Positions 18,524 through 36,090 of a stretch of 64,000 bases of DNA are shown here, one piece after another (position 1 is the first letter of the stretch; each line of letters opens with the position of its first letter). A program made the translations under genes and the position numbers. Origin of the DNA: Myxococcus eversor (lineage in GTDB: Bacteria; Myxococcota; Myxococcia; Myxococcales; Myxococcaceae); the NCBI RefSeq assembly GCF_010894455.1, contig NZ_JAAIXY010000016.1, positions 124,001-188,000 of the forward strand. Reading direction: 5' to 3'. The notes under the pieces were generated by a model. The model was not told the origin of the DNA, did not search any database, and was given only the letters and a program-made list of their open reading frames with translations.

Positions 18524-18542
18524 CGTGCGGAGAGGAGGAGTC

Positions 18543-18914: not shown

Positions 18915-18922
18915 GGCTCCGC

Positions 18923-21867: not shown

Positions 21868-22060
21868 CGGCACTCCCAATGGCGACCCCCGCCCTCGCTT
21901 CACCACCCTCGAAGTACGGTGCCAACGCCCTGGCACGGCTTCCCGCGAAGGCGGCCGGGGTGACGTTCGCCCGAGCACCCTGGCGCCCGGACCACGACCC
22001 CGTCATGAGGACTTCGGACATAGAGGGGGAAGGGCCCGCGGTCAAATCCACGGGGGTGCC

Positions 22061-22762: not shown

Positions 22763-23060
22763 GCGGGGTCCACCTCCTGGTGCGTCTCCAGTCTGTGAAC
22801 CCGCATGGACTCGGCAACCCGGCACGACACTCGCGAGCGGGGTCTCCGTGGACCATCCAACGTCCTCACCGCCCCGAGGGGCCGAGCGCGTGTCCCCTGT
22901 CACACTGCCCTCCGGGTCCGGCCTGGAATGCCGAGGCACCGTGCCTACCGTGCTCGCTCCCAGGCATCGGTGAAGCCGCTCCCACGGACCTCTCCCCGAG
23001 CCACGCCTGGGTCATCACAGGGGCCGGCCCACGGGAGCGTCGCATGTTCGGGAGTCACTG

Positions 23061-24089
23061 ATGCGTCGAGTCCTCGCAGGCTGTCTGGCCCTATCCGCGC
23101 TGGGAACCACCCTCCCCGCCGCCGCGTCCGAGTGCGGCTACACCGCCGCGGGCTGGAACGCCCCCAACGGCGCGGTGGTGTTCAGTCGGAGTGATGACGG
23201 CCCCATCCGCAATGTGATTGATGCCATTGGCGAGTTCCGCACGCACTCCATGCTCTCGCATGGCGCGACGGGAGGCGTCACCCACGCCACCATGAAGGAC
23301 CCGGAACAGCACTCGTTGCCCACTGTCTGCGGAACACCGCTCAAGGCCGGCCAACTCCAGAACGGCTACCCGGGGCTGGAGCAGATCAATCAGGGCGGCA
23401 TCTATCATTATCTCTACGACGCGAATGGCCACGGGCCGGACTGGACCGCGTGGCAATTGGGAGACGCGGTGGGCGCGGCGCGCATCGCGGACAGCCTCTG
23501 GTTCAACCACCCCTATGTCAGTGACGTGTCCCGCGCCGACGGCAGCCAGCTCATCGACCGACCCCTGTGGAACGGGGCGCGCGTGCCGTATTCGTTGTTC
23601 CAGTACAGAGACGTGGAGTCGACGCACCAGATTCCCGGCAACGCGGCCAACAACGGGATGATGTGCTCCAGCTTTCTCGCCTACGCCCACAACTACGCGG
23701 GCAGAGGCATTGTCACCACGCACACCTATCCGCACGAAGTCGTCGCCAACGCGGCCAACACCATCCACTGGGGCGTGCATGGCCAGTGCAAGTCGTCGCT
23801 CGGCTGGTTCGAGAAAGCCGCGCTGACGGTCCTCTGTCCCTTCTCCAACGTATGCACCAACGCCGGCAACCAGGTGGCCAACTGCATGTCAGCCAATCGC
23901 TGTGACGTGAGCACCGGCGGCATCTGGAAGGGCGTGCGTGACGACCCCGCCACGACCGCCACCTCCATCAGCCCGGACCGCATCGGCGGCTGGAGCGTGC
24001 ACCCCTCCAACACCACCCTGTGGGCCAGCGACTACTCGCACCAGCTCCAGTGGAACTCCGGCGGCAACGTCTACGGCTGCTGGCAGTGA
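23061..24089 (+). CDS. exported permuted-papain-like (YiiX/NlpC-type) cysteine hydrolase, putative
   Basis: Residues 1-22 are a signal peptide ending P-A-A-A-S. A possible active site has a His in T-H-S-M-L-S-H-G near 62-68, followed much later by M-M-C-S-S-F-L-A-Y-A near residue 200. In the permuted NlpC/P60-like YaeF/YiiX group the His precedes the Cys in this way, and Cys-Ser-x-Leu/Phe is typical. Several Cys pairs near the C-terminus suggest disulfides. Such enzymes hydrolyse amide or acyl bonds in the envelope. The assignment is by motif order only. It is the first of three exported-protein genes in the same direction. Confidence 0.55.
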   Translation: MRRVLAGCLALSALGTTLPAAASECGYTAAGWNAPNGAVVFSRSDDGPIRNVIDAIGEFRTHSMLSHGATGGVTHATMKDPEQHSLPTVCGTPLKAGQLQNGYPGLEQINQGGIYHYLYDANGHGPDWTAWQLGDAVGAARIADSLWFNHPYVSDVSRADGSQLIDRPLWNGARVPYSLFQYRDVESTHQIPGNAANNGMMCSSFLAYAHNYAGRGIVTTHTYPHEVVANAANTIHWGVHGQCKSSLGWFEKAALTVLCPFSNVCTNAGNQVANCMSANRCDVSTGGIWKGVRDDPATTATSISPDRIGGWSVHPSNTTLWASDYSHQLQWNSGGNVYGCWQ

Positions 24090-24127
24090 GCACCCCCTCC
24101 CGCTGAATCAATCGACAGGAGCCCCGG

Positions 24128-25480
24128 ATGAATCCCTCGGAACCGCCCTGGTGGCGCCGACGCCTCACCCTCATGCTCGGTCTCGGAATCGCGGCGCTGG
24201 TGGCCGGCGGGCTCCTCTCCCTGGAGTCGCCCGCGCATCCCGAAGCCATTCCGCTCGCCGTGGAGGCCTCACGCTCTCCAGCGGTGTCCGCGCGCACGGC
24301 CCCCATCCTGCCCACGGGGATGGTTAGCGCCGTTCGCCCCGCTCCGGAGCGTGCTCCCGCCCCCATCATCGACAGCGTGACGGTGGAGAAGCGGGAGGTC
24401 TGCTCCGGCGAAGACAACCTCATCAGCGTCAGGGCTCATTCACCGGATGGCAATGACGCCTATCTCCACACCACCGTCGGCGCGGGTATCGGCATGCGCG
24501 TTCCCCTGCGCGTCTGGCGTGAGCCGGATGGGACGTACGAGCTGCCCACCGTGACGGTGTTCGGCAAGGACAACGTCGCCACCACCGTGCAGGTGCCCCG
24601 CTACACCGTGAAGGACTGCGAGCCCGAGCGCCTGGTCGAGGTCTTCTCCCGGCGAGCCCCCAACACCGAGGAGGACTTCGAGTTCCTCGCTCGCATCCTC
24701 GAGCCACCTCGCCAGGACACCGCTTCACGGGAGCCCTTCACGCCCGTGCGCTTCGTCTGGACCTTCGACGACCGGCACGCGGTGACGACGAGCACGCCCA
24801 TGGTGACGCAGACCGTGAGCCCCGACGTCACCCAGCCTCCTTCCATGTACAGCCAGCACATGGTGCGGGTGGACGTGTTCGACGCCACGGGCAAGAAGGT
24901 GACGGGCCGCTCCTCGCTCCAGCTCCTCGACAACACGTTCGAGAACTTCGACAAGAAGGGCGTCGTCACCGTGCTCGCGGCGGGGATACCGCGCTTCCCC
25001 GTGGAGGACGCCGAGGGCGTGGTCCGACAGACCTTCCGCCTGTCCCACCGGTGGAAGGGCTCGGTGAGGCTGGAGCGTGTCACCGCGCTGCGCGCGCGAG
25101 CGCCAGAGCCCGATGCCCCGCCCCTGCCCGAGGACACCGAGGAGGTGAGCCTGCGCGTGGACTCCCTTCCCGAAGGCCGGGGCGTGGACGTCTCCGTCGC
25201 ATTGGACACCCGGACCGAGGCGGACGTGAGGCAAATCACCTATCTGCTGGAAGGCACCACCGTGGATGGACACCCCGCGCGCGGGACCTTCTCCGTGATG
25301 CGGCCCCCACCCCGCCCGACGCGAGAGAACAGCACGGCCGTGACGGACCCGCTGCTGCTCGCGAAGGTGAAGCGGGCGCGCGAGCTGCTCGGCCAGCCCT
25401 TCGTCACGGACGAGGACCTCTGGCGCCTGGAGCGAGAGGGGCACTTCAAGGACCTCAAGGCCCAGCGCGACACGCCGTGA
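24128..25480 (+). CDS. membrane-anchored exported protein, unknown
   Basis: A GGAG site precedes the ATG, 38 bases after the previous gene. The 450-residue protein has positive residues then one hydrophobic span at 13-30 (L-T-L-M-L-G-L-G-I-A-A-L-V-A), so it is anchored with the bulk outside the cytoplasm. The body appears beta-rich, with repeats of strand-like segments such as V-R-F-V-W-T-F-D and V-E-V-F-S-R-R, in the style of immunoglobulin-like domains. I recognise no family. It probably shares a transcript with the cysteine-hydrolase-like gene. Confidence 0.72.
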   Translation: MNPSEPPWWRRRLTLMLGLGIAALVAGGLLSLESPAHPEAIPLAVEASRSPAVSARTAPILPTGMVSAVRPAPERAPAPIIDSVTVEKREVCSGEDNLISVRAHSPDGNDAYLHTTVGAGIGMRVPLRVWREPDGTYELPTVTVFGKDNVATTVQVPRYTVKDCEPERLVEVFSRRAPNTEEDFEFLARILEPPRQDTASREPFTPVRFVWTFDDRHAVTTSTPMVTQTVSPDVTQPPSMYSQHMVRVDVFDATGKKVTGRSSLQLLDNTFENFDKKGVVTVLAAGIPRFPVEDAEGVVRQTFRLSHRWKGSVRLERVTALRARAPEPDAPPLPEDTEEVSLRVDSLPEGRGVDVSVALDTRTEADVRQITYLLEGTTVDGHPARGTFSVMRPPPRPTRENSTAVTDPLLLAKVKRARELLGQPFVTDEDLWRLEREGHFKDLKAQRDTP

Positions 25481-25588
25481 GCCTCCGCCGTCCACCCCGT
25501 GGGAGCGACCACTCCCCTCGGACTGGCGACCGGTGAGCTCGACTCGATGACCTGGGCCCCGGGGGGCGTGCTGTCCTCCGGGCCGCCC

Positions 25589-26698
25589 ATGCCTCGCTCC
25601 TTCCTCCGAGCCCTGCCTCCGCTGCTGGCCCTGCTGACCGCGAGCCCTGGCGCCGCCGAGACTCCTTCTCACTCGTCCTCGCCCGACCTGAACGTCCCCT
25701 CGGGCCAGGCGCTCCAGGCGCTGGAACAGCGCATCCTCGGACGCGGCTGCGAGCCCCAGCTCCTGGGCGATGCGAGCCGGCGATTCTCCGAGGCCCAGCT
25801 CCTGTGCGCCGCGCACTTGTCCTTCCTCCTGGTCCAGTTGTCACTGGATGGCGGCGCTCCACCCGAGACGCCCCGGCGCGTGAAGGCCCTGCTCGACAAC
25901 GCGCTGACGAAGGGCCGCGCGCCCTTCCTCTCCGATGGCGCCGCGCTCGTGGAGAAGCATCACCTGCCGCACAGCGTGCTCTACCGGGGTTATGTGTTGT
26001 TGATGCTCGCGGGCATGGAGCGCGCGGGCCTGGCCGACGCGGCGTCCACCGCGCTGTTCGATGCCCTGGCCGCGCGGCTCGTGGAGGCCCTCTCGAAGCA
26101 ACTCCTGATGCCTTCCTTCGGCAAGTCCGTCTGGCCCTGTGACAGCGCTCCCGCCGCCGCGGGCCTGCTGTTGCACGGGAGGCTGCGCGGCAACGCCGAG
26201 TCACTCGCGATGGGAGAGCGCCTCACGGCCCGACTGGTGGAACTCGCCGCCCTGCCCTCGGGCTTTCCCACCAAGATGAACGCCAAGGGCCGGCTCGTCG
26301 AGCCCACTCCTCGAGGCACCACGCTGGCGTGGACGGGCGCCTTCCTCGCCATGGGCTCGCACTCCTCCGCCGCCACCTTCACCACTGCGCTGGTGAAGGG
26401 CTACTGCGACCGCCCGGGCGGAGAACTGCTTCCCTTCGCCGCCTGTCGGGAGTGGCCCCGAGGCGTGAACGGCCGCCAGGATGCCGCGAGCGGCCCGTTG
26501 CTGCACGGCGGCTACTCCGTGGGCGCGAGCGCCCTGGCCATCGCCGCCACCCGCCTCTCTCCAGAGCACCGCGCCTGGCACCAGGACCTGCTCAATGCCG
26601 CACGAGAAATGGGCATCCGACCCATGCTCGAAAAGCCACACATGCACCCGCTCGAAACCGCCCTGTATTGGTGGGGGGCCAACGCTCGCCCCTGGTAG
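25589..26698 (+). CDS. exported helical-repeat protein, unknown
   Basis: The start M-P-R-S-F-L-R is chosen because the following 22 residues are a clear signal peptide ending P-G-A-A-E; the longer in-frame start would bury it. The 369-residue mature chain is mostly helical with Ala/Leu-rich repeats, and contains H-H-L-P-H-S-V-L-Y-R-G-Y and W-P-C-D-S. Such alpha/alpha toroid-like patterns occur in hydrolases and lanthionine-type cyclases, but no signature decides. I call it unknown. It ends 140 bases before the subtilase gene. Confidence 0.68.
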   Translation: MPRSFLRALPPLLALLTASPGAAETPSHSSSPDLNVPSGQALQALEQRILGRGCEPQLLGDASRRFSEAQLLCAAHLSFLLVQLSLDGGAPPETPRRVKALLDNALTKGRAPFLSDGAALVEKHHLPHSVLYRGYVLLMLAGMERAGLADAASTALFDALAARLVEALSKQLLMPSFGKSVWPCDSAPAAAGLLLHGRLRGNAESLAMGERLTARLVELAALPSGFPTKMNAKGRLVEPTPRGTTLAWTGAFLAMGSHSSAATFTTALVKGYCDRPGGELLPFAACREWPRGVNGRQDAASGPLLHGGYSVGASALAIAATRLSPEHRAWHQDLLNAAREMGIRPMLEKPHMHPLETALYWWGANARPW

Positions 26699-26838
26699 GC
26701 AATGCCCCCGCATGTCGGCGCACACCCCGGACGTTCAATGACGAACCGCTGTCTCATCCCTGAGGGCTAAATCAGGATTAAGCCGAATTTAAAGTCGATT
26801 CGTATCATTCCGCGTAACCCATTGCAGGGGGATGAGAC

Positions 26839-28140
26839 ATGAATCGACGGATGACCACGCTGACCCTGGCCATGAGTGGACTGGCGATGCTGGGGGCCTG
26901 CTCGAGCAGCCGGCCCGTCTGCAAGGACCCGTCGGCCTCCGCCGCGCTCCGCGCGCCTCCGACGGGGAAGTTCCTCACCGTCAGCAAGAAGATACCGGGC
27001 GAGTACGTGGTGGTGCTCAAGACGCCCGAGCCGGGGCTGCAGCCGCTCGCCGTCACCCAGGCCACCCAGGCCCTCATGGAGCAGTACGGTGGCGCCGCGT
27101 TCGCGGTGTACGAGCATGCGCTGCGCGGCTTCGCCAGCAGGATGAGCGAGGACCAGGCGCGCGCCCTCGCGGAGGACCCCAGGGTCGCCTACGTCCAGGA
27201 GAACGGGGTGATGTCCATCCGCGAGAGCCAGCCGAGCCCCACCTGGGGCATCGACCGCGTGGACCAGCGCACGCTGCCGCTCGACAAGCTCTACATGTAC
27301 AACGCCACCGGGCTGGGGGTGCATGTCTACATCCTCGACACCGGCGTGCGCTTCTCGCACCGCGAGTTTGGAGGCAGGGCCTCCGTCGGGTTCGACGCCA
27401 TTGGCGACAGCATGAAGGGCAATGATTGCCATGGCCACGGCACGCACGTGGCGGGCACGGCGGCGGGCAGCACGTATGGGCTGGCCAAGAACGCCACCGT
27501 GCACTCCGTCCGCGTGCTCGCGTGCAACGGCTCGGGCTCCACGGCCCAGGTCATCGCGGGCATCGACTGGGTGACGAAGAACCACCAGTCCCCGGCCGTG
27601 GCGAACATGAGCCTGGGTGGAGATTCCGACCCGGCCATCGACGAAGCAGTCCGCCGCTCCATCGCCTCGGGCGTCACCTACGTGCTCGCCGCGGGCAACG
27701 AGTCCGGCGATGCCTGCAGGCACTCTCCGGCCCGGACGGAGGAGGCCATCACCGTGGCCGCCACCGACACCAGCGACAAGCGCACGCCCTTCTCCAACTA
27801 CGGCGACTGCGTGGATGTCTTCGCGCCCGGCAACAGAATCACCTCGGCCTGGCACTACGGAGACCAGGAGTCGCGCGAGCTGAGCGGCACCTCCATGTCC
27901 GCGCCCCACGTGACGGGCGTGGCCGCGCTCTGGCTGGAGCTGAATCCCGACTCCACGCCCGCCATCGTCGCCAGCGCGCTGTTCGAAAACGCCACGCTCG
28001 ACAAGGTGCGAAGCCCCGGTGAGTGCACCCCCAACCGGATGGCGTACTCGGGCTTCATCGGCGCCGTGCCGGTGCTGCCCACCGTGAGCACCGAGCCCGA
28101 GACGTCGCCAGCACCGGTGAGCGGCGAAAGTTCGAAGTAA
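26839..28140 (+). CDS. proteinase K-like subtilisin (S8) lipoprotein protease
   Basis: The 433-residue precursor begins with a lipoprotein-type signal ending M-L-G-A-C, then an inhibitor I9 propeptide with G-E-Y-V-V-V-L-K and A-Y-V-Q-E-N. The S8 domain follows with the full triad: Asp in Y-I-L-D-T-G-V, His in H-G-H-G-T-H-V-A-G-T, Ser in S-G-T-S-M-S-A-P-H-V. The oxyanion Asn is in A-A-G-N-E-S-G. These proteases degrade prey or environmental protein outside the cell. The AT-richer upstream 130 bases probably hold its promoter, and a strong hairpin terminator follows the gene. Confidence 0.92.
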   Translation: MNRRMTTLTLAMSGLAMLGACSSSRPVCKDPSASAALRAPPTGKFLTVSKKIPGEYVVVLKTPEPGLQPLAVTQATQALMEQYGGAAFAVYEHALRGFASRMSEDQARALAEDPRVAYVQENGVMSIRESQPSPTWGIDRVDQRTLPLDKLYMYNATGLGVHVYILDTGVRFSHREFGGRASVGFDAIGDSMKGNDCHGHGTHVAGTAAGSTYGLAKNATVHSVRVLACNGSGSTAQVIAGIDWVTKNHQSPAVANMSLGGDSDPAIDEAVRRSIASGVTYVLAAGNESGDACRHSPARTEEAITVAATDTSDKRTPFSNYGDCVDVFAPGNRITSAWHYGDQESRELSGTSMSAPHVTGVAALWLELNPDSTPAIVASALFENATLDKVRSPGECTPNRMAYSGFIGAVPVLPTVSTEPETSPAPVSGESSK

Positions 28141-28180
28141 GCGTCCGGCCGCGAGGACCCCTCCCCCTCGCGGCCCCCGA

Positions 28181-28224
28181 GGGCCGGACTCCGTCAGCAC
28201 GACGGAGCCCGGCCTTCGTCTTTT
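28181..28224 (+). terminator. rho-independent terminator after the subtilase gene
   Basis: A nested inverted repeat pairs CTCCGTC with GACGGAG around AGCAC, and outside it GGCCGG with CCGGCC, giving a 13-bp stem with a small bulge. It is followed by a T-rich stretch (TTCGTCTTTT). It separates the subtilase gene from the Ubl/ThiF genes downstream. Confidence 0.8.
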
Positions 28225-28338
28225 CACGGGCGCCCCTTGCGCCGAGTCAGGACGCCCCGCGCGCTCCCGTCCCGCGAGGTGCCTGGCCGGCCGCCCTTTT
28301 CGCGGCCCCTGGCACGCGCGAGGAGGCGCGAGACGACC

Positions 28339-28587
28339 ATGGCGACCCTGAACATCACCTATGACGGCATGTCCGCGGACGTGCCGGTGGAGCTGGACCG
28401 GCCGGTGTCCGACTCCGACGTGCGCCGCATCGCCGCGGAGCTGATTCGCGCGGGCGGAGTGCCCGGCCTGCACCTGGCGCACCTGCGCGACGACGTCTTC
28501 CAGCACTTCGTCGTGGACCGGTTCCGGGGTGCGCGTGGCGACGAGCGCATCTACCTGCGCCCCAAGGTGCCCTTCGGCGCCCGCTGA
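28339..28587 (+). CDS. small beta-grasp (ubiquitin-like) protein candidate
   Basis: The 82-residue protein starts at M-A-T-L-N-I after GAGGAGG. The predicted order is strand (L-N-I-T-Y-D-G), strand (A-D-V-P-V-E-L), a helix (S-D-S-D-V-R-R-I-A-A-E-L-I-R), then two short strands ending R-I-Y-L-R-P-K. This is the beta-beta-alpha-beta layout of ubiquitin-like folds. It ends G-A-R, not Gly-Gly, so conjugation is not proven; processing by a JAB protein could expose another end. The next gene, nine bases away, encodes a ThiF/E1-like enzyme, the usual partner of bacterial Ubls. The fold is inference from pattern and context. Confidence 0.6.
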   Translation: MATLNITYDGMSADVPVELDRPVSDSDVRRIAAELIRAGGVPGLHLAHLRDDVFQHFVVDRFRGARGDERIYLRPKVPFGAR

Positions 28588-28596
28588 GGAGAAGCC

Positions 28597-29178
28597 ATGC
28601 GCATCCTCTTCTGCGGTGTGGGCGCCATCGGCTCCCAGGCGGCCGTCCTGTGCCGCAACCTGGAGGCCACCCTGGTCTTCATCGACTTCGACCGGGTGGA
28701 GTCCAAGAACCTGCTCGCCCAGGCCTACGTGAAGCCCTCTGTCGGGAAGAACAAGGCCGAGGCCCTCAAGCTCCAGCTCCTCAACCTGCACGGCGTGAAG
28801 TCGGAGTCCTTCGGCGTGCGAGTCACCCGCGACAACGTGGCGGCCCTGTGTGGCGGCGCGGACCTGCTGGTGGACTGCTTCGACAACCAGGACAGCCGCC
28901 AGCTCCTCGGCGACTTTGCTCGGGGAGCAGGCAAGCCCCTGGTACACGGCGCGGTGAGCGCGGACGGGACTTTCGGCCTGGTCCGCTGGGACGAGCGATT
29001 CGTCCCGGATGCCGAGGACACCGCCGGGCAGGCCACCTGCGAGGGCGGCGCGCACCTGCCTCTCCTGGGCCTGCTGGCCGCCACCCTCGCCCGCTGCGTG
29101 CAGGACTTCGTCAAGCAGGGCATCAGGCGGGACGCACTCGTGAACCTCTCCTCCGTCGTCCCCACCTCGAGTCACTGA
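28597..29178 (+). CDS. ThiF/E1-like adenylyltransferase, small form
   Basis: The 193-residue protein is a minimal Rossmann-type E1 domain. G-V-G-A-I-G is at residues 7-12. I-D-F-D-R-V-E-S-K-N-L-L-A-Q at 29-42 matches the E1 pattern D-x-D-x-V-x-x-x-N-L-x-R-Q, except that Ala replaces the conserved Arg. K53 and V-D-C-F-D-N (92-97) fit the ATP site. C148 in T-C-E-G is a possible acceptor cysteine. E1 enzymes adenylate the C-terminus of ubiquitin-like proteins. It starts nine bases after the beta-grasp-like gene. At under 200 residues it lacks the extra domains of MoeB or canonical E1. Confidence 0.85.
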   Translation: MRILFCGVGAIGSQAAVLCRNLEATLVFIDFDRVESKNLLAQAYVKPSVGKNKAEALKLQLLNLHGVKSESFGVRVTRDNVAALCGGADLLVDCFDNQDSRQLLGDFARGAGKPLVHGAVSADGTFGLVRWDERFVPDAEDTAGQATCEGGAHLPLLGLLAATLARCVQDFVKQGIRRDALVNLSSVVPTSSH

Positions 29179-29226
29179 CGTGATTTGACCAAGACGTCAC
29201 ACCCCACGCCCCACGCGGAGCCTCCC

Positions 29227-30120
29227 ATGGCCCTGGACATCCTCTTCGACATGGAGACGAGCGACCCCGACGACGCGCTCACGCTCTGCCTGTTGGCCAC
29301 GCACCCCGCCGTCACCCTGAGGGCGGTGACCGTGACGCCGGGCACACTCGCTCAGGTGGGAATGGTGAGACACCTGCTCGCGCGTGCCGGCCGGAGTGAC
29401 GTGCCCGTAGGCGCGCGCAATCCGGCGGCGGAAAAGGAGAGCCTCTCGGCTTTCCATACGAAGTGGCTGGGCCCCCTGCCTCCCGCCGCGCCGGATGCCC
29501 TGGCGCACGAGGTGCTGGCACTCGCGCTCGGGCGATTTCCCGAGGCGACACTGGTGACGGGCGCGCCGCTCCAGAATCTGCGGCTGCTGCTGGAGCACCA
29601 TCCGGACCTCCACCTGCGTCGTTGGGTGGCACAGGGCGGCTTCGCGGGTGACAACGTGGTCCCTCCGGAGCACCGGCTGCCCAAGTTCGAGGGCCGGCGC
29701 ACCTGCCCGACCTTCAACTTCAACGGAGACCCCAAGGGCGCGCTGCTGGCCCTCTCCTCGGACCGAGTGGGTCGACGCGAGCTGGTGTCCAAGAACGTCA
29801 CCCATGGACTGGCCTATGACGGCGCCTTCCACGAGCGGATGAGGCCCTACGCCTCGGCGACGCCCGGGCTGGCGCTCATCTTCGAGGCCATGGAGCGCTA
29901 CCTGGCACAGCGGCCCGAAGGAAAGCTCCTGCACGACCCCATCGCCGCATGCGCGGCCATCGACCCGGGAATCGTCACCTGGGCGGAAGTAGAGATGGTG
30001 CGCGAGCGCGGAGAGTGGGGAGCCGAGCTGGCGCAAGGCACCCGGACGTTCATCTCGGTGGCCCTGGACCCCGAGCGCTTCTTCCGAACCTTCGTGGGAA
30101 TCGACGCCGCGACAAATTAA
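29227..30120 (+). CDS. nucleoside hydrolase-like (IUNH-family) protein
   Basis: From M-A-L-D-I-L-F (297 residues; a start 42 bases upstream is also possible) the N-terminus reads D-M-E-T-S-D-P-D-D, equivalent to the D-T-D-x-G-x-D-D calcium-binding motif of inosine-uridine nucleoside hydrolases. Later P-I-A-A-C-A-A-I-D (near 240) matches the second metal-side motif H-D/P-x-A. These enzymes cut N-glycosidic bonds of nucleosides. Here the protein lies between a ThiF-like enzyme and a tRNA array, so its substrate might be a modified nucleoside, a nucleotide or RNA; that is inference. The gap to the ThiF gene is 48 bases. Confidence 0.82.
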   Translation: MALDILFDMETSDPDDALTLCLLATHPAVTLRAVTVTPGTLAQVGMVRHLLARAGRSDVPVGARNPAAEKESLSAFHTKWLGPLPPAAPDALAHEVLALALGRFPEATLVTGAPLQNLRLLLEHHPDLHLRRWVAQGGFAGDNVVPPEHRLPKFEGRRTCPTFNFNGDPKGALLALSSDRVGRRELVSKNVTHGLAYDGAFHERMRPYASATPGLALIFEAMERYLAQRPEGKLLHDPIAACAAIDPGIVTWAEVEMVRERGEWGAELAQGTRTFISVALDPERFFRTFVGIDAATN

Positions 30121-30181
30121 TCGCGGCGCTGTCAGGGATGAAAATCAACCGCCGTAGATTCCCCCAGAAAGGAGCGGTGAC

Positions 30182-30340
30182 ATGACAACGGCGAAGATGC
30201 AGTCGAACGAGACGAAGCGCAGCTATCGACACAACCTCTGGTCCCAGTTCGACGCCGCCTCCTGCTCCTTCTCGAGCACAGGCTCGATTCGCAACGTGGG
30301 ATTCAGCCACCTTCACGGCCATCCGCCCGTACCCTGCTGA
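30182..30340 (+). CDS. 52-residue ORF before the tRNA array, possible leader peptide
   Basis: An AAAGGAG site seven bases before the ATG makes translation likely. The peptide starts M-T-T-A-K-M-Q-S-N-E and ends H-P-P-V-P-C. It is Ser- and His-rich and uses all 20 standard amino acids by residue 48, including Trp20, Cys28 and four His. Thirty-eight bases after its stop is a hairpin terminator, then the tRNA array. I suggest a leader peptide whose translation reports tRNA shortage. A peptide substrate of the nearby ThiF-like enzyme is the main alternative. No known family is recognised. Confidence 0.6.
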   Translation: MTTAKMQSNETKRSYRHNLWSQFDAASCSFSSTGSIRNVGFSHLHGHPPVPC

Positions 30341-30377
30341 CGCTCGCGCTTCGTCACTGACGCGCCAAGCCACGCAG

Positions 30378-30411
30378 AGGCCGGGCTCCCATCCAGGGGA
30401 CCCGGCCTTTC
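30378..30411 (+). terminator. hairpin terminator/attenuator candidate ahead of the tRNA array
   Basis: AGGCCGGG (30378-30385) pairs with CCCGGCCT (30401-30408) across a 15-base loop, and a short TTT follows. It ends 22 bases before the first tRNA. It could stop transcription from the upstream genes, or act as an attenuator controlled by translation of the 52-residue ORF. Confidence 0.65.
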
Positions 30412-30432
30412 GGCTTTCGGGCCTCCGATCCA

Positions 30433-30517
30433 GGGGACGTAGAGCGTTACGGCAGACGCGCGGGCCTGTAGAGCCCGAGCCCGACAGGGCCTGCTGGGTT
30501 CAACTCCCAGCGTCCCC
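30433..30517 (+). tRNA. tRNA-Tyr(GTA), class II
   Basis: A perfect 7-bp acceptor stem (GGGGACG/CGTCCCC), D-stem GCGT/ACGC, anticodon loop CTGTAGA (GTA), a long variable hairpin GCCC-GACA-GGGC as in bacterial tRNA-Tyr, and T-arm with TTCAACT. Discriminator A; CCA is not encoded. Confidence 0.88.
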
Positions 30518-30567
30518 ATGCTCCGCACGAGCAGGGCTGCATCATCCAAACCCAGACGTAATTTTCC

Positions 30568-30637
30568 AGGGGTATAGCTCAAAGGCAGAGCACTCGCTTG
30601 ATAAGCGGGTGATCCCGGTTCGACTCCGGGTACCCCG
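30568..30637 (+). tRNA. tRNA-Ile(GAT)
   Basis: Acceptor strand AGGGGTA faces TACCCCG with an A-G mismatch at the first pair. D-arm GCTC/GAGC, anticodon arm CTCGC/GCGGG with loop TTGATAA (GAT), T-arm CCCGG/CCGGG with TTCGACT. The variable loop has four bases. Confidence 0.82.
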
Positions 30638-30644
30638 ACTCCAT

Positions 30645-30716
30645 GTTGGCCGAAGGCGATTGGTGAGCCACCGGGATGTGACCCCGGGGAAGAGGGTTCG
30701 ATTCCCTCCGGTCAAC
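30645..30716 (+). tRNA. tRNA-His(GTG)
   Basis: Seven acceptor pairs with one G-U, D-stem GGC/GCC, anticodon stem CCGGG/CCCGG with loop ATGTGAC (GTG), T-arm GAGGG/CCCTC. Discriminator C is as in tRNA-His, but the base before position 1 is T, so the usual G-1 identity base is not encoded. Confidence 0.8.
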
Positions 30717-30795
30717 CTGACAGTCCCAGCTCTCTGACAACTGAATCGTCGTGGTGAATGCACGCCGCCTGCTCACACAGGGGTGGCGGCAAAAT

Positions 30796-30865
30796 GCCTC
30801 CGTAGCTCATTGGTAGAGCATCCGCCTCTTAAGCGGACGGCGAGGGTTCGAATCCCTCCGGAGGT
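30796..30865 (+). tRNA. tRNA-Lys(CTT)
   Basis: Acceptor GCCTCCG/CGGAGGT (G-U first pair), D-arm GCTC/GAGC, anticodon stem TCCGC/GCGGA with loop CTCTTAA, T-arm GAGGG/CCCTC with TTCGAAT, discriminator A. The 79 bases before it hold nothing I can name. Confidence 0.88.
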
Positions 30866-30883
30866 ACTCGAAGCAGCAGCAAC

Positions 30884-30953
30884 GCGGGTGTCGTCCAGCG
30901 GCAGGATGGCGGTTTCCCATACCGTCGACACGGGTTCGAATCCCGTCACCCGC
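30884..30953 (+). tRNA. tRNA-Gly(CCC)
   Basis: Acceptor GCGGGTG/CACCCGC is perfect. D-arm GTCC/GGAT, anticodon loop TTCCCAT (CCC) on a 5-bp stem with one G-U, T-arm ACGGG/CCCGT with TTCGAAT, and discriminator T as expected for glycine. Confidence 0.86.
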
Positions 30954-30973
30954 TTCACATGTGTCACTTCCAT

Positions 30974-31044
30974 ACCGGAGTCGTCTAATCAGCAGGATGG
31001 CGGATTCTGACTCCGCAGGCGCAGGTGCGATTCCTGCCTCCGGT
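30974..31044 (+). tRNA. tRNA-Gln(CTG)
   Basis: Acceptor ACCGGAG/CTCCGGT, anticodon stem GCGGA/TCCGC with loop TTCTGAC (CTG), T-stem GCAGG/CCTGC. The T-loop is TGCGATT, with G where position 55 is normally T, so the usual pseudouridine site is absent. Confidence 0.82.
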
Positions 31045-31064
31045 TCTCTCTTCACGCAGCACAT

Positions 31065-31135
31065 TCCCCGGTAGCTCAATGGCAGAGCGCGCGGCTGTTA
31101 ACCGCGAAGTTGGGGGTTCGAGTCCCTCCCGGGGA
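31065..31135 (+). tRNA. tRNA-Asn(GTT)
   Basis: Acceptor TCCCCGG/CCGGGGA, D-arm GCTC/GAGC with GG, anticodon stem CGCGG/CCGCG with loop CTGTTAA, T-arm with TTCGAGT, and discriminator G as in asparagine tRNAs. Confidence 0.88.
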
Positions 31136-31154
31136 GCTTGCAACAGACGCAACT

Positions 31155-31223
31155 GGCCAGTTCCGCCCGGGGTGGCAACGGTCTGCAAAACCGTTTGGGA
31201 CGGGTTCGACTCCCGTATTGGCC
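31155..31223 (+). tRNA. tRNA-Cys(GCA)
   Basis: Acceptor GGCCAGT/ATTGGCC with one G-U, D-stem GCC/GGC, anticodon stem ACGGT/ACCGT with loop CTGCAAA, T-arm ACGGG/CCCGT, and discriminator T, the cysteine identity base. Confidence 0.86.
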
Positions 31224-31234
31224 TCACTTTCATT

Positions 31235-31306
31235 GCCGACCTGGCGTAGGTGGTCCGCGCGCCCGTCTGAAGAGCGGGAGGACTCGGTTCGATTCCGAGG
31301 GTCGGC
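31235..31306 (+). tRNA. tRNA-Phe(GAA)
   Basis: Acceptor GCCGACC/GGTCGGC, D-stem GCG/CGC with loop containing GG, anticodon stem CCCGT/GCGGG with loop CTGAAGA, T-arm CTCGG/CCGAG, discriminator A. Confidence 0.86.
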
Positions 31307-31330
31307 ACTTCGCAGCACGTTTCACTTCAT

Positions 31331-31397
31331 AGGCTGCGCTCCGGGAGCAGCTTGGACTCCAAATCCGAGCGCGCGGGGTTCAACTCCCTGGCGGCCT
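31331..31397 (+). tRNA. tRNA-Trp(CCA) with minimal D-arm
   Basis: Acceptor AGGCTGC/GCGGCCT, anticodon arm TTGGA/TCCGA with loop CTCCAAA, T-arm CGGGG/CCCTG, discriminator G. Only 14 bases separate the acceptor and anticodon stems. They form GCTC-CGG-GAGC, so positions 8-9 are missing and the D-loop has three bases. Confidence 0.78.
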
Positions 31398-31406
31398 GCT
31401 CGTTTC

Positions 31407-31479
31407 GCCCCTGTAGCTCAACTGGTAGCAGCACCGGTTTCGTAAACCGGGGGTTGTCGGTTCGAACCCGACCGGGGGC
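31407..31479 (+). tRNA. tRNA-Thr(CGT)
   Basis: Acceptor GCCCCTG/CGGGGGC, D-stem GCT/AGC with GG in the loop, anticodon stem CCGGT/ACCGG with loop TTCGTAA, T-arm GTCGG/CCGAC with TTCGAAC, discriminator A. Confidence 0.86.
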
Positions 31480-31506
31480 ACTTCACGCAACACGCAGTCG
31501 TCACAT

Positions 31507-31577
31507 GGGTTCGTGGCTCAATGGGAGAGCACTCGGTTTGCACCCGAGGGGTTCCGGGTTCGAGTCCCGGCGGATCC
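31507..31577 (+). tRNA. tRNA-Ala(TGC)
   Basis: Acceptor GGGTTCG/CGGATCC carries the G3-U70 pair that marks alanine tRNAs. D-arm GCTC/GAGC, anticodon stem CTCGG/CCGAG with loop TTTGCAC, T-arm CCGGG/CCCGG, discriminator A. It is the only member with U34. Confidence 0.88.
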
Positions 31578-31584
31578 ACTTCAT

Positions 31585-31657
31585 GCCCTTGTAGCTCAGT
31601 GGATGAGAGCGCACGGTTCCGAACCGTGAGGTCGCAGGTTCAATCCCTGCCAGGGGC
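31585..31657 (+). tRNA. tRNA-Arg(CCG)
   Basis: Acceptor GCCCTTG/CAGGGGC, D-arm GCTC/GAGC, anticodon stem CACGG/CCGTG with loop TTCCGAA, T-arm GCAGG/CCTGC with TTCAATC, discriminator A. Confidence 0.87.
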
Positions 31658-31681
31658 ACTCGCTTCAGCCAAAGCCATTCC

Positions 31682-31755
31682 GCTTCCGTAGCTCAGTGGA
31701 TTCAGAGCAGGCGCGTCCTAAGCGCGAGGTCGCAGGTTCGAATCCTGCCGGGAGC
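31682..31755 (+). tRNA. tRNA-Arg(CCT)
   Basis: Acceptor GCTTCCG/CGGGAGC, D-arm GCTC/GAGC, anticodon loop GTCCTAA (CCT) on GGCGC/GCGCG, where the outer G-G does not pair. T-arm GCAGG/CCTGC, discriminator A. A T-rich run (31769-31775) follows. Confidence 0.83.
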
Positions 31756-31776
31756 ACACACGTTTCACGTTTTTTC

Positions 31777-31846
31777 TGCGGGGAGAGGCTGGTGCCTCAC
31801 CGGGCCTCATAAGCCTGGCCTCCAGGGTTCGACTCCCTGCTCCGCA
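31777..31846 (+). tRNA. tRNA-Met(CAT)
   Basis: Acceptor TGCGGGG/CTCCGCA with a normal T1-A72 pair, so probably an elongator type. D-stem GAGGC/GCCTC with the four-base loop TGGT, anticodon stem CGGGC/GCCTG with loop CTCATAA, T-arm CAGGG/CCCTG. Confidence 0.82.
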
Positions 31847-31855
31847 ACTCTTCAT

Positions 31856-31927
31856 GCACGCCGAGCCAGCTGGAGACGGCGACGGTCCCACACACCGTTT
31901 TCGCCGGGTTCGATCCCCGGGGCGTGC
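31856..31927 (+). tRNA. tRNA-Val(CAC)-like with C33
   Basis: Acceptor GCACGCC/GGCGTGC is perfect, D-stem GCC/GGC, anticodon stem ACGGT/ACCGT, T-arm CCGGG/CCCGG. The loop is CCCACAC: anticodon CAC, but position 33, almost always U, is C. Confidence 0.8.
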
Positions 31928-31947
31928 ACTCGTATTTCCGTGGTCTT

Positions 31948-32020
31948 GCCGGTGTAGCCCAATGGGTAGAGGTGCCAGGTCGAGAACCTGGAGGATGCGG
32001 GTTCGACTCCCGCCACCGGC
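31948..32020 (+). tRNA. tRNA-Leu(GAG)-like with C33 and short variable loop
   Basis: Acceptor GCCGGTG/CACCGGC, anticodon stem CCAGG/CCTGG, T-arm GCGGG/CCCGC. The seven-base loop TCGAGAA places GAG at 34-36 with C at 33. The variable loop has only five bases, although leucine tRNAs are normally class II, so amino-acid identity is uncertain. Confidence 0.75.
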
Positions 32021-32076
32021 ACTGTCGTCGCAGTCCGTAGCCCGCAGTCGCAAGTCAGCAGGACATCCCGAAGTCC

Positions 32077-32149
32077 GTCCGCGTAGCCCAAACGGGAGAG
32101 GCCGCCGGCTCAAACCCGGCACAGTGCGAGTTCGACTCTCGCCGCGGAT
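32077..32149 (+). tRNA. tRNA-Leu(CAA)-like with short variable loop
   Basis: Acceptor GTCCGCG/CGCGGAT (G-U first pair), D-stem GCC/GGC, anticodon stem GCCGG/CCGGC with loop CTCAAAC, T-arm GCGAG/CTCGC. The variable loop is five bases (ACAGT) instead of the long leucine arm. Confidence 0.78.
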
Positions 32150-32170
32150 ACAACCGAAAGGCGTTGCGTC

Positions 32171-32713
32171 ATGGAGACGCTGGTTCTCAGTCAGTCCTTC
32201 GAGCCCGTCGCGCGGATTCCCTGGCAGCGCGCGGTGATGCTCATCTTCCAGGGCAAGGTCGAGGTGGTCGAGGAGTACGAGGACCGCTTCGTGCGCTCGG
32301 TGACGGTGGAGATCCGCATGCCCTCCGTCATTCGTTTCTTCCGCGGGCTGCGCAAGGGCCCCAAGGGCGTGAAGTTCAGCCGGGAGAACGTCTACCTGCG
32401 AGACCGCTGCCGCTGCCAGTACTGCGGCCTCAAGGTGTCTCGCGCTGAGGCGACGTATGACCACGTCCTGCCTCGGGCCCAGGGTGGCCGCACGTCCTGG
32501 GACAACGTCGTCATCGCGTGTGTGCCCTGCAACCAGAGGAAGGGCAACCGGACTCCGGAGCACGCGAAGATGGCGCTGCGCTGCGCCCCGGTGAAGCCCA
32601 AGAAGCTGCCGGACGCGATGCACCTGACGTTCGTCTTCGAGCAGGGCATGCCCATGTCGTGGGCCAAGTTCCTGAGGGACGTGGCGTACTGGCATGGCGA
32701 GTTGGAGGATTGA
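32171..32713 (+). CDS. HNH endonuclease embedded in the tRNA array
   Basis: The 180-residue protein has a basic N-terminal half with a K-G-P-K-G-V-K patch and a C-terminal HNH/zinc module. That module holds C-R-C-Q-Y-C-G, then Y-D-H-V-L-P-R-A-Q-G-G, W-D-N-V-V-I-A-C and C-N-Q-R-K-G-N-R-T-P. The His-Asn-Asn catalytic pattern and two Cys pairs are intact, so a metal-dependent nuclease is expected. The gene starts 21 bases after the last leucine tRNA-like unit and is followed by three serine tRNAs, so it is probably on the same transcript. Related HNH proteins are common in bacteria and usually of unknown target; a role in cutting or trimming array RNA is speculation. Confidence 0.88.
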   Translation: METLVLSQSFEPVARIPWQRAVMLIFQGKVEVVEEYEDRFVRSVTVEIRMPSVIRFFRGLRKGPKGVKFSRENVYLRDRCRCQYCGLKVSRAEATYDHVLPRAQGGRTSWDNVVIACVPCNQRKGNRTPEHAKMALRCAPVKPKKLPDAMHLTFVFEQGMPMSWAKFLRDVAYWHGELED

Positions 32714-32744
32714 GGTCCCAGGACGGTGCGCCTGGAGGGGATGA

Positions 32745-32784
32745 GGAGGTCCGCCAGAGGCGGCCTCCCGCCCATGGACCTCCC
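32745..32784 (+). other. nested inverted repeats after the HNH gene
   Basis: GGAGGTCC and GGACCTCC form an 8-bp inverted repeat, and CCGCC-AGA-GGCGG nests inside it. The two hairpins share bases and cannot both form fully. No T-run follows. It may be a processing or termination signal between the HNH gene and the serine tRNAs. Confidence 0.4.
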
Positions 32785-32826
32785 CGCGAGCCGGCAGGCG
32801 GGTGCGCTGCTGCCGGCGACTTTTCT

Positions 32827-32911
32827 GGAAGACCGACGCTGGAGGCCGGCGGCCCGTTTCGAAAACGGTGCGGGTGCATGACGCGCTCGGGGTTCGAGTC
32901 CCCTGTCTTCC
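32827..32911 (+). tRNA. tRNA-Ser(CGA), class II
   Basis: Acceptor GGAAGAC/GTCTTCC, anticodon loop TTCGAAA (CGA) on a 4-bp stem with a C-T next to it, a long variable arm containing GCG/CGC, T-arm GGGG/CCCC with TTCGAGT, and discriminator G typical of serine. Confidence 0.82.
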
Positions 32912-32921
32912 GCTGTGACTT

Positions 32922-33005
32922 GGAGCATGCGGGCCGGGTGGCCGGCCGCCTGGCTGGAAACCAGGAGAGCCCTTCGGGGCTCGTGGTTCGACTCCACCGT
33001 GTTCC
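32922..33005 (+). tRNA. tRNA-Ser(GGA), class II
   Basis: Acceptor GGAGCAT/GTGTTCC with two G-U pairs, anticodon stem CCTGG/CCAGG with loop CTGGAAA, a strong variable hairpin GAGCCC-TTCG-GGGCTC, T-arm GTGG/CCAC, and discriminator G. Confidence 0.86.
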
Positions 33006-33022
33006 GCTCGCTTCACATGTTT

Positions 33023-33109
33023 GGAAGTTGGACTGGCGATGGCGCCAGGCCCCGCTGCTACCGGGTGCGAGCCGGCCTTCCGGCTTGAGGTTCGAGTCCT
33101 CCGACTTCC
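33023..33109 (+). tRNA. tRNA-Ser(GCT), class II
   Basis: Acceptor GGAAGTT/GACTTCC, a six-pair D-arm CTGGCG/CGCCAG, anticodon stem CCCG/CGGG with loop CTGCTAC, variable hairpin AGCCGG-CCTT-CCGGCT, T-arm GAGG/CCTC, and discriminator G. Confidence 0.84.
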
Positions 33110-33164
33110 GCTTCCCTCCGGCCTCGGGCCAGGGGATTCCGGCCACCCGCCGGGATTGCGCGCT

Positions 33165-33200
33165 CACCTCGACGGTTCAGCGGTTAGAGTGCGTGCTCCG
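33165..33200 (+). other. possible 5'-half tRNA fragment
   Basis: A D-arm-like stretch (GGTTCAGCGGTTAGAGT) resembles the start of tRNA-Asp or tRNA-Glu, but no anticodon arm or T-arm follows before the next start codon. It could be a decayed 22nd array member or the leader of the fusion gene. Confidence 0.35.
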
Positions 33201-33222
33201 GCGAGGGGGCGGCTGACGACAC

Positions 33223-36042
33223 ATGGCGACGAGGAAGAGCGAGGACCAGGAGCGACTCATCGACCGGGACCTGACCGCGTTGGCCCGAGAGGGTCGGCTG
33301 CCGGCCGCGCATGGCGTAGACGCCGCGGTGACGGAGGTTCTGGGACTGCTGACGCGCGGTGGCAAACACCCGCTGCTGGCGGGAGACCCCGGCGTGGGCA
33401 AGAGCGCGCTCGTGCAGGAGGTGGCGCGCCGCATCGCCGAGGGACGCGTGGACGCGGAGCTGACGCAGTCGCGTCTGGTAGAGGTGTCCGTCGCCAACAT
33501 CCTCGCGCGCAGCACCCAGCGACAGGCCGCGGAGAGCTTCGAGGAGCTGCTGGCCCACCTGGCGCGGCACCCCTGTCCCATCGTCTACATCCGAGACCTG
33601 CCGGCCGCGCTGGGCGGGCCCCTGGCCCCCGTGGCCGTGCGCGCGCTGCGCACCGGAGGCCTGCGCTTCATCTTCGAGACAGAGCCCAAGCGCGTGCAGG
33701 AGCTGCTGCGCTCCGACGAGGCGCTCGCGGAGCGGCTGCACCTGCTCCCCCTGCACGAGCCCCCGCTGGAGAAGGCGCGCTGGATACTGGGCCGGGTGGC
33801 GGAGGAGCTGGAGCGCGAGCTGCGCCTGCCCATCGACCCGGCCGCGTGCGATTTGGCCCTGCGGCTGTCGTCCAAGTTCCTGCTGGCGCAGCGCATGCCG
33901 CGCAAGGCCATCGAGCTCTTGAAGGAGACGGCGGCGGAGGCCGCGAGCGCGGCCAAGGACCACGTCGGTCCCGAGGACGTGCTCACCCGCTTCTGTTCCG
34001 CCACGCGCCTGCCGCGCTTCGTGGTGGACGACGCCATGCCGTTGGACCTGGAGGAGACGGAGCGCTTCTTCGGAGAGCGGCTGCTCGGCCAGACGGACGC
34101 GGTGGGCGCGGTGCTGCGCTCGGTGGCGCTGCTCAAGGCGGGGTTGAACGACCCGCGCCGGCCGCTGGGCGTGTTCCTGTTCGCCGGCCCCACGGGCGTG
34201 GGAAAGACGCAGCTCGCGAAGCTGCTGGCGGAGTACCTCTTCGGCTCGGCGGACAGGCTGGTGCGCCTGAACATGGCGGACTACCCCAACGACGGTGACG
34301 AGAGCGTGCCCTTCGGCGCGTCCTGGGCCCCGGCGCTGGAGACGCGTCGCGGAGAGCTGAGCGCGCTCCTGGACGGCAAGGTGTTCTCCGTGCTGCTGCT
34401 CGACGAGTTCGAGAAGGCCGCGCGCAGCGTGCACGACCGCTTCCTCCAGCTCTTCGACGAGGGCACCTTCGTCAACGGCGCGGGCGAGGTCGTCTCGTGC
34501 AACAACACGCTCATCGTCGCCACGTCCAACGTGGGCGCGGAGGTGTACCGGGAGCCCGCCATGGGCTTCGCGGGCACCAAGCGCGCGGACGAGATGGTGT
34601 CGGAGGTCGACCGCCGCATCGGCGAGGCCTTCCGCCCCGAGTTCCTCAACCGCTTCGACGCCATCTGTCACTTCCAGCCCCTGTCCAAGGTGGACATCCG
34701 CAAAATCGCGCAGCGCGAGGTCGGCCGCGTGCTGGAGCGAGAGGGCATCCGCGCGCGCTCCCTGGACGTGGAGGTGACGCCCGAGGTCGTCGACCGGCTG
34801 GTGGAGCGCGGCTACTCGCCCCAGTTCGGCGCGCGCTACCTCCAGCGGGAAATCGAGAAGACGCTCACCGCGGCGCTGGCCGTGGAGATTGCGCGCAAGC
34901 CGCTGCCCCCTGGCACCCCCGTGCGCGTGGAAGCACGCCCCGGAGGCCGGGTCATCGCGGTGGCCGAGCCCGCCGCCCCACTGCCCTCCCCCACCGCGCA
35001 GCTGCTGTTGCCGTCCGCACGGGCGACGCCGGTGAAGCGGCGGCTGGACCGCAAGTCGCTGCTGGTGGAGATGGACCGGCTGGTGGGCAAGGCCCGCTCG
35101 CTGGCGGCCTCCGCTGGGCGGCCGGAGATGGAGGAGCGCCGCACGTCCCTGCTGACGGAGACGCAGGCGCCCAACCTCTGGGACGACCCCACGCACGCGG
35201 CGGATGTCATCCGGGCCTTCCGGACAGTCGAGGCCCACCTCAACGAGATGGAGCGACTGGAGGCCGCGTGTCTCTTCGGGCGGCGCCTGGTGCGCGAGGC
35301 GAAGAACGAAGTGCAGCTCGCCTCCGCGGCCCGGCAGGTTGAAGACGTCGCGCGCGAGGTGCAGATGGCGGAGGCGCTCCACGCCTCCGGCTCCACCACC
35401 CTGGACAATGAAGCGCTGGTGGACATCTGCGCGAGCGACTCGGCGGAGACACAGGAGGCGTGGGTGCAGGAATTGGCCACCATGTACCTGGGCTGGGCGC
35501 AGCGGCGCGGCTACGAGGCGGTAGCGGTGGCGGAAGCCGACGAGCCGGCCCGCGTCGTGGTGCGCATCGCCGGCCCCGGAGCCTACGGCTTCCTCGCGGG
35601 CGAGGCGGGCATGCACCGACGGCTGGAGGACGAGAAGCGCCAGCGCGCCTATGTCCGCGTGCACCGGGGCGGCGCTCTCTCGGAGGAGGAGCTGGAGCTG
35701 CTGGAGGTGCTGGGCCGGCCCGTGAAGAGCCATGAGGGCACCTATCTCCAGCGCGTGCGCACCGAGGTGACGGTGAAGGACGAGTCCACCGGCCGGGTGC
35801 TGACGCTCACGGGCGCGGGCGAATTGGACGAGCTGAAGGACATCGCCGCTCGCGTGGTGGCCGGACAGGGCGGAAGCACGGACGAGGTGCGGCGCTACTA
35901 CCTGGGCCGCAGCGCGCGGGTGGAGGACCCTCGCACCGGCGCCGGGACTCCTCGCGTGAAGGACGTGCTGCGCGGCGAGCTGGACGTGTTCATCGCCGCG
36001 TGGATTTCGCGCCCGCCGTCGGAGCCCCCGCTGGGGAGCTGA
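33223..36042 (+). CDS. ClpA/B-like double AAA+ unfoldase fused to an RF2-like domain without GGQ
   Basis: The 939-residue protein begins directly with AAA+ module 1 (Walker A G-D-P-G-V-G-K-S at 54-61); no Clp N-domain is present. Module 2 has G-P-T-G-V-G-K-T near 322-329, L-L-L-D-E-F-E-K as Walker B, and a ClpB-type C-terminal subdomain with G-A-R-Y-L-Q-R-E-I-E. From about residue 607 it resembles release factor 2: W-D-D-P in the first helix region, M-Y-L-G-W-A-Q-R-R-G-Y, A-Y-G-F-L-A-G-E-A-G-M-H-R, and V-E-D-P-R-T-G at the end. The peptidyl-hydrolase loop that should read G-A-G-G-Q is S-H-E-G-T-Y-L-Q (about 835-842), so hydrolysis is not expected. It follows the serine tRNAs by 113 bases. I infer recognition of stalled or damaged ribosomes coupled to ATP-driven remodelling. 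Confidence 0.9.
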   Translation: MATRKSEDQERLIDRDLTALAREGRLPAAHGVDAAVTEVLGLLTRGGKHPLLAGDPGVGKSALVQEVARRIAEGRVDAELTQSRLVEVSVANILARSTQRQAAESFEELLAHLARHPCPIVYIRDLPAALGGPLAPVAVRALRTGGLRFIFETEPKRVQELLRSDEALAERLHLLPLHEPPLEKARWILGRVAEELERELRLPIDPAACDLALRLSSKFLLAQRMPRKAIELLKETAAEAASAAKDHVGPEDVLTRFCSATRLPRFVVDDAMPLDLEETERFFGERLLGQTDAVGAVLRSVALLKAGLNDPRRPLGVFLFAGPTGVGKTQLAKLLAEYLFGSADRLVRLNMADYPNDGDESVPFGASWAPALETRRGELSALLDGKVFSVLLLDEFEKAARSVHDRFLQLFDEGTFVNGAGEVVSCNNTLIVATSNVGAEVYREPAMGFAGTKRADEMVSEVDRRIGEAFRPEFLNRFDAICHFQPLSKVDIRKIAQREVGRVLEREGIRARSLDVEVTPEVVDRLVERGYSPQFGARYLQREIEKTLTAALAVEIARKPLPPGTPVRVEARPGGRVIAVAEPAAPLPSPTAQLLLPSARATPVKRRLDRKSLLVEMDRLVGKARSLAASAGRPEMEERRTSLLTETQAPNLWDDPTHAADVIRAFRTVEAHLNEMERLEAACLFGRRLVREAKNEVQLASAARQVEDVAREVQMAEALHASGSTTLDNEALVDICASDSAETQEAWVQELATMYLGWAQRRGYEAVAVAEADEPARVVVRIAGPGAYGFLAGEAGMHRRLEDEKRQRAYVRVHRGGALSEEELELLEVLGRPVKSHEGTYLQRVRTEVTVKDESTGRVLTLTGAGELDELKDIAARVVAGQGGSTDEVRRYYLGRSARVEDPRTGAGTPRVKDVLRGELDVFIAAWISRPPSEPPLGS

Positions 36043-36059: not shown

Positions 36060-36090
36060 GAGGGGACGGGCCATCCCGCCCCGTCCCCTC
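36060..36090. terminator. bidirectional hairpin between convergent genes
   Basis: GAGGGGACGGG (36060-36070) pairs perfectly with CCCGTCCCCTC (36080-36090) around a nine-base loop, between the stops of the Clp-RF2 fusion and the CARDB lipoprotein. No long T-run is seen on either side, so it may rely on Rho or on stem strength. Confidence 0.7.

Follow-up and report, generated by a model that had tools for sequence, protein, structure and literature searches.

What purpose do clustered spare tRNA genes serve, and how would a silent array of them detect that tRNAs have been lost? Both questions are raised by a locus of the predatory soil bacterium Myxococcus eversor, which was studied here in a window of 64,000 nucleotides (contig NZ_JAAIXY010000016.1, positions 124,001 to 188,000 of the forward strand; assembly GCF_010894455.1, a Myxococcus-group genome of 11.4 Mb in 124 contigs) to which the coordinates below refer. 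All along the + strand and with short gaps, the locus encodes a ubiquitin-like (Ubl) protein, a ThiF/E1-like protein, a nucleoside hydrolase, a leader open reading frame (ORF), a tRNA array with an HNH endonuclease gene, and a fusion of ClpB-like AAA+ and RF2-like parts (ClpRF). An earlier interpretation made without database searches, hereafter the sequence-only reading, had proposed that all these genes form one system responding to tRNA and ribosome damage. What appears new, and is strongly supported by our sequence comparisons, is the sensing-and-replacement half of that idea. The core unit is probably a leader-controlled spare tRNA set, consisting of the leader ORF, an attenuator-like hairpin and the array with its embedded HNH gene. 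A leader that lists the amino acids of its array would be a direct and testable sensor, and would predict the tRNA losses to which each species is able to respond.

The tRNA array and its leader

The array (30433-33111, + strand) holds 21 tRNA genes in about 2.7 kb. ARAGORN called 20 of them, and tRNA-Ser(CGA) at 32828-32912, which it missed, was recovered by a profile search. The first 18 genes (30433-32151) are Tyr, Ile, His, Lys, Gly, Gln, Asn, Cys, Phe, Trp, Thr, Ala, Arg, Arg, Met, Val, Leu and Leu. The HNH gene lies at 32171-32713 (+ strand), directly 3' of tRNA-Leu(CAA), and three tRNA-Ser genes occupy 32828-33111, with GGA at 32922-33007 and GCT at 33023-33111 following CGA. Together with Ser, the isotypes number 17; Asp, Glu and Pro are missing. 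Genome-wide there are 74 tRNA matches, about 60 of them outside the array, and the array is redundant with the housekeeping set and therefore a spare set. Its size varies widely: some species have arrays of more than 20 tRNAs, others of only 1-8.

The leader ORF (30182-30340, + strand) is preceded by AGGAG at 30170-30174 and encodes 52 residues in which all 20 amino acids occur. Relatives of the same genus carry an ORF at the same site, about 95 bp upstream of the first tRNA, which typically lacks Glu only; given a typical proteome composition, a 52-residue peptide would lack Glu only with a probability of 0.0007. Leader and array were compared in 51 pairs from six genera of Myxococcaceae (Myxococcus, Pyxidicoccus, Archangium, Hyalangium, Corallococcus and Citreicoccus). 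The leader in cis encodes 462 of the 464 array isotypes, both misses being Glu. When arrays were permuted among the 44 non-redundant leaders (20,000 shuffles), the mean was 35 violations and the minimum 16, against the two observed, and random peptides in place of the leaders gave 53-73 violations on average. With Glu excluded, the leader lacked the amino acid in none of 414 cases in which the tRNA was present, compared to 74 of 422 cases in which it was absent. Shuffling within each amino acid raised the first figure to a mean of 32 (minimum 19), and shuffling within amino acid and clade to a mean of 6.5 (minimum 1). Losses from leaders, counted by clade and residue, amount to 27, none of them contradictory, and on the ClpRF tree they fall in separate lineages.

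Individual loci illustrate this correspondence. In Hyalangium, arrays that contain tRNAs for Glu, Asp and Trp stand behind leaders with all 20 amino acids, and a relative without tRNA-Trp has a leader likewise without Trp. In an Archangium locus (L108), Cys, Glu, Ile and Trp are missing from leader and array alike. Where Corallococcus arrays are cut to Pro and Leu, the leaders are shorter (36-38 residues) and Pro-rich. Two loci (L051 and L054) have the array in two halves, each with its own leader covering its own isotypes, and a leader is kept even upstream of arrays with only 1-3 tRNAs. That leader content tracks array content is strongly supported by these comparisons and is the strongest result of our analysis. 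At the comparative level, it bears out the proposals of the sequence-only reading that the leader senses tRNA loss and that the array is a replacement set.

The array could instead be a decaying phage remnant kept by a homing HNH gene, with a functionless leader. Reduction of arrays to 1-8 tRNAs in several lineages would be expected in that case, and the HNH protein does belong to a phage-type, homing-like family. However, leader content follows the array through its tRNA losses, the leader is retained before 1-3 tRNAs and synteny is held across genera, and we consider decay quite unlikely. The HNH gene itself is probably a homing-type passenger.

The pattern of substitution in the leader is also informative. 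Start codon, Shine-Dalgarno-like site, stop codon, length and frame composition are conserved, and all of these but the last would also be compatible with a functional small peptide that is not a sensor. The peptide itself is not conserved, since the three codon positions carry 1219, 1375 and 901 substitutions, respectively, with a synonymous fraction of 0.20 compared to 0.24 expected. The reading frame is nevertheless kept, as GC content is 0.86 at the third position vs 0.49 at the first. Given the lack of purifying selection on the peptide and the tracking of array content, a functional peptide is very improbable. Positions that drift within a retained set of amino acids fit the prediction for a codon-reading sensor.

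Hairpins between leader and array and a proposed mechanism

Two hairpins were found between leader and array. P1 (30342-30370, + strand) lies immediately 3' of the leader stop codon and has been re-formed from unrelated sequences in different genera; its median z is -1.5 over 48 loci, and the window copy, of modest stability, has a z of -0.6. P2 (30376-30410, + strand), the strong, attenuator-like hairpin of the leader/array interval, is near-invariant in sequence across genera, with about -26 kcal/mol in the window and a median of -28.6 kcal/mol. It resembles a terminator-like hairpin at about 28176-28215, 3' of an S8 protease gene. P2 is located where an attenuator would be expected, and attenuation at P2, although unproven, is the step that we prefer.

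In the trp, his and ilv attenuators, a terminator-like hairpin stands between a short ORF with cognate codons and the genes under control, and the Myxococcaceae locus shares this arrangement. It differs in that the targets are tRNAs and not biosynthetic enzymes, that nearly all amino acids are represented in the leader as opposed to one to few, and that an antiterminator was not identified. By analogy, we infer that the leader is translated. With charged tRNAs in ample supply, the ribosome would pass along it to the stop codon beside P1 and P2, and transcription would end at P2. If any cognate tRNA were cleaved, uncharged or short, the ribosome would stall in the leader and RNA polymerase would read through into the array, so that spare tRNAs would be made once their housekeeping counterparts were lost. 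On balance, we favour a universal sensor of tRNA shortage, in which one leader may read up to 20 tRNAs and release the matching spare set, with leader and array content co-evolving. Such regulation was not found in the literature searched.

Several observations weigh against this model. Two arrays with tRNA-Glu sit behind Glu-less leaders, and amino acids often remain in the leader after the tRNA has been lost from the array. Codon matching is looser than amino acid matching: for the array tRNAs Ala(UGC), Arg(CCU), Gly(CCC) and, in part, Leu(CAA), the leader usually has the amino acid but not the cognate codon. Because leader and array are inherited together, the pairs are not fully independent, a dependence of which the within-clade shuffle removes only a part. 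Clear leaders were found only in Myxococcaceae, and a possible phage leader, described below, is only suggestive. Finally, the T-tract of P2 is weak and a strict terminator scan does not call it, and no competing antiterminator was found when three representative leaders were folded with ribosome-masked positions.

The last points bear on how the array might be controlled. A classic antiterminator was rejected, as the probability of P2 was about 1 at every masked ribosome position in the folded leaders. The leader may sense tRNA supply with control exerted by way of Rho, the stability of the RNA or the processing of the array transcript, and with P2 serving as a processing or stabilising hairpin. 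The missing antiterminator and the weak T-tract would be in line with this, as would the invariant sequence of P2, which is expected of a protein or RNA recognition site. On the other hand, the position of P2 between the leader stop codon and the first tRNA, as well as its likeness to the hairpin at 28176-28215, fits a terminator, and we regard this alternative as possible but rather unlikely.

Extent of the unit: nucleoside hydrolase and ClpRF

The sequence-only reading had placed the named genes, co-directional and with short gaps, between two hairpins. Genes and hairpins are indeed found there, the hairpins at about 28176-28215 and 36060-36090. It had further taken the run from Ubl through E1, nucleoside hydrolase, leader, array and HNH to ClpRF for a single operon working together, with ClpRF clearing stalled ribosomes. 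In favour of such an operon, several genomes, from more than one genus, have E1 no further than 400 bp from the leader, and ClpRF adjoins the array in many genomes, in addition to the common strand and short gaps of the window. However, relatives have as little as 60 bp or as much as about 10 kb between E1 and leader, the long intervals hold unrelated genes, the attenuator-like hairpin splits the unit, and the array and ClpRF are about 1 kb apart in most relatives. The nucleoside hydrolase (29185-30120, + strand; Pfam IU_nuc_hydro, 3e-21), which had been counted as a member of the system, is found in the window and one close relative only; by sequence comparison, it is recent cargo outside the conserved unit. 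That the E1-leader insert could be a defence island was considered and rejected, its ten cargo proteins being transporters, hydrolases, peptidases and similar.

ClpRF (33223-36042, + strand) carries a PCRF domain (Pfam PF03462, E 3e-14), as class-1 release factors do. It is family-wide in Myxococcaceae and has representatives in one other family, and it also occurs at loci without a nearby array. In an alignment with the resident RF2, which has both GGQ and SPF, the GGQ motif, catalytic in class-1 release factors and the PrfH rescue factor, is missing from all ClpRF homologues and the SPF stop-codon motif is deleted in all aligned copies. ClpRF is not a normal release factor, because GGQ and the stop-codon motif are lost. 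Its first AAA+ domain is without the usual DE of Walker B, and a ClpP-docking tripeptide was not seen in the second. A ribosome-binding unfoldase is a possible role. These losses, together with the presence of ClpRF in relatives without an array, argue against the proposed clearing of stalled ribosomes, and with the RF part also lacking a phage counterpart, a single operon with this function is quite unlikely. ClpRF is an older resident gene and a neighbour of the array that is probably not functionally tied to it. The idea that ClpRF is part of a phage-derived cassette was likewise rejected, phage matches being found for the AAA+ half only and none for the RF part.

A phage-type cassette linked to tRNA arrays

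The Ubl and E1 genes belong to another association. Three further genes lie upstream on the + strand of the window, encoding a Ro60/TROVE-fold protein (15708-17474), the uncharacterised g17504 (17504-18523) and a JAB-like peptidase (18525-18914). The count covered those loci in viral and bacterial collections that have four or more of the five genes, and the order Ro60, g17504, JAB, Ubl, E1 on one strand was found in 16/16 viral and 30/30 genomic loci (46/46). At least three tRNAs are nearby in 12 of the 16 viral loci, and phage arrays of tRNA genes with HNH are frequent neighbours of the cassette. It was recorded in, among others, Polyangiaceae, Labilithrix, Virgisporangium, Terriglobia, Verrucomicrobia and Chloroflexi.

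All of these elements occur in Virus Rctr197k, where cassette and HNH homologues are interleaved with about 40 tRNA genes. Identities to the window proteins are 35% for the Ro60-fold protein, 37% for JAB, 37% for Ubl, 40% for E1 and 45% over 78 residues for a part of g17504. The HNH of the window is 48.6% identical to that of Rctr197k, which is likewise encoded 3' of tRNA-Leu(CAA). The evolutionary linkage of Ro60/TROVE, JAB, Ubl, E1, array and HNH suggested by the sequence-only reading is thereby supported. The array-HNH unit and the five-gene cassette appear to be genes of phage type that large phages carry together and that have been domesticated in Myxococcaceae. The named parts did not come together by chance, since other members of the genus again have leader, array, HNH and fusion; the fusion is also found in relatives without an array.

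Regarding the individual proteins, the AlphaFold2 model of the first gene product has both the helical-repeat domain and the vWA fold of Ro60, and Foldseek matched it to Ro60 1yvp (E 1e-8) and to the Ro60 of Thermus phage phiLo, 9l5y (E 4e-6). g17504 has no Pfam match; phages and bacteria alike retain it in second place in the cassette. The JAB-like protein matches Pfam Prok-JAB at E 2e-4, below the Pfam cut-off. The Ubl-like protein (28339-28587, + strand) has a conserved C-terminal RPKVPFG, and its AlphaFold2 model (pLDDT 91) shows with confidence a beta-beta-alpha-beta-beta domain, with Z values of about 5 for its likeness to ubiquitin, MoaD and ISG15; a Foldseek search gave no match under E 0.5, which we do not count as evidence against the fold. 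Its assignment as a beta-grasp protein, based on the model and modest Z values, is a prediction. The small E1-like protein (28597-29178, + strand; Pfam ThiF, 7e-20) has a conserved Rossmann motif and an invariant cysteine in TCEGG. Ro60 would plausibly handle damaged RNA, and Ubl, E1 and JAB would plausibly provide a protein tag.

Two other proposed components fared less well. RtcB is present in the window (1723-3147), but was rejected as a linked partner, being near the cassette in only two phage loci. A Y RNA at the TROVE locus was also not confirmed, tRNA being the only Rfam match in the window at the gathering threshold.

In the genus of the window, several kilobases split the cassette between JAB and Ubl. 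The split (18914-28339 in the window; loci L108-L133 in relatives) is seen in Myxococcaceae, and the two genes are usually closer in phages and other bacteria. Myxococcus phage Mx1 (OR576727, 45000-75000; L077) carries an HNH gene in a cluster of tRNA genes, among which it also encodes a protein with the annotation TROVE, a peptidyl-tRNA hydrolase and a calcineurin-like phosphoesterase. The announcement paper of Mx1 mentions the tRNAs and not TROVE.

Relation to known systems

The array resembles mycobacterial tRNA array units with HNH, which hold about 20-27 tRNAs for 17-20 amino acids in a dense co-directional run, are redundant with the housekeeping set and contain one HNH gene of the same family (PMC5966550, PMC12803027). 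Unlike the Myxococcaceae arrays, they are largely on plasmids or phages, and the one M. intracellulare array examined had neither such a leader nor a Ro60-JAB-Ubl-E1 cassette near its locus. A spare set of 26 tRNAs is also known from the trn operon of Anabaena PCC 7120, which is silent, is induced by translational stress and aids survival (PMC10272220). There, the RHH protein TrcR represses the promoter, whereas a leader peptide in cis is proposed for Myxococcaceae.

As for the cassette, the rsr-yrlBA-rtcBA RNA repair operon shares a Ro60-type protein and a context of tRNA damage, and is regulated by tRNA fragments through RtcR (PMC7790460); it differs from the window, where no Y RNA was detected and RtcB has no supported link to the cassette. 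As in prokaryotic Ubl conjugation systems (PMC1779556, PMC10097602, PMC7159879), genes for a beta-grasp Ubl, an E1 and a JAB protein occur together. An E2-like gene was not noticed in the window, in which no dedicated E2 search was made, and the type found here is linked to Ro60 and phage tRNA arrays. In the parts of these Ubl sources that were available, no link to Ro60 or tRNA arrays was found, and an earlier mention of Ro60 with Ubl is possible. Phage-encoded Ro60-fold proteins are known from jumbo phages, together with RNA repair genes (PMC7824862), and from Thermus phage phiLo (PDB 9l5y); the portions of these sources available to us describe neither the five-gene cassette nor JAB, Ubl or E1 partners. 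The cassette ties protein-tagging-type genes to tRNA arrays in large phages, and is a target for work on phage counter-defence and domestication.

Leader candidates outside Myxococcaceae

No clear leader was found at the tRNA arrays of M. intracellulare (the one array mentioned above) or Nostoc. In Rctr197k (L076; KX853510, 160000-197311, - strand), a 52-residue ORF located 286 bp upstream of a 30-tRNA array contains all 20 amino acids. In other Myxococcales, small ORFs with 20 and 19 amino acid types were observed near tRNAs and the cassette (L139, 8160-8300, and L147, 3302-3454, respectively). All three are only suggestive as leaders, because 1.5% of background small ORFs reach 20 amino acid types and 6.7% reach 19 or more. 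The L139 and L147 ORFs have no clear Shine-Dalgarno-like site and share similar acidic-(V/I)T ends.

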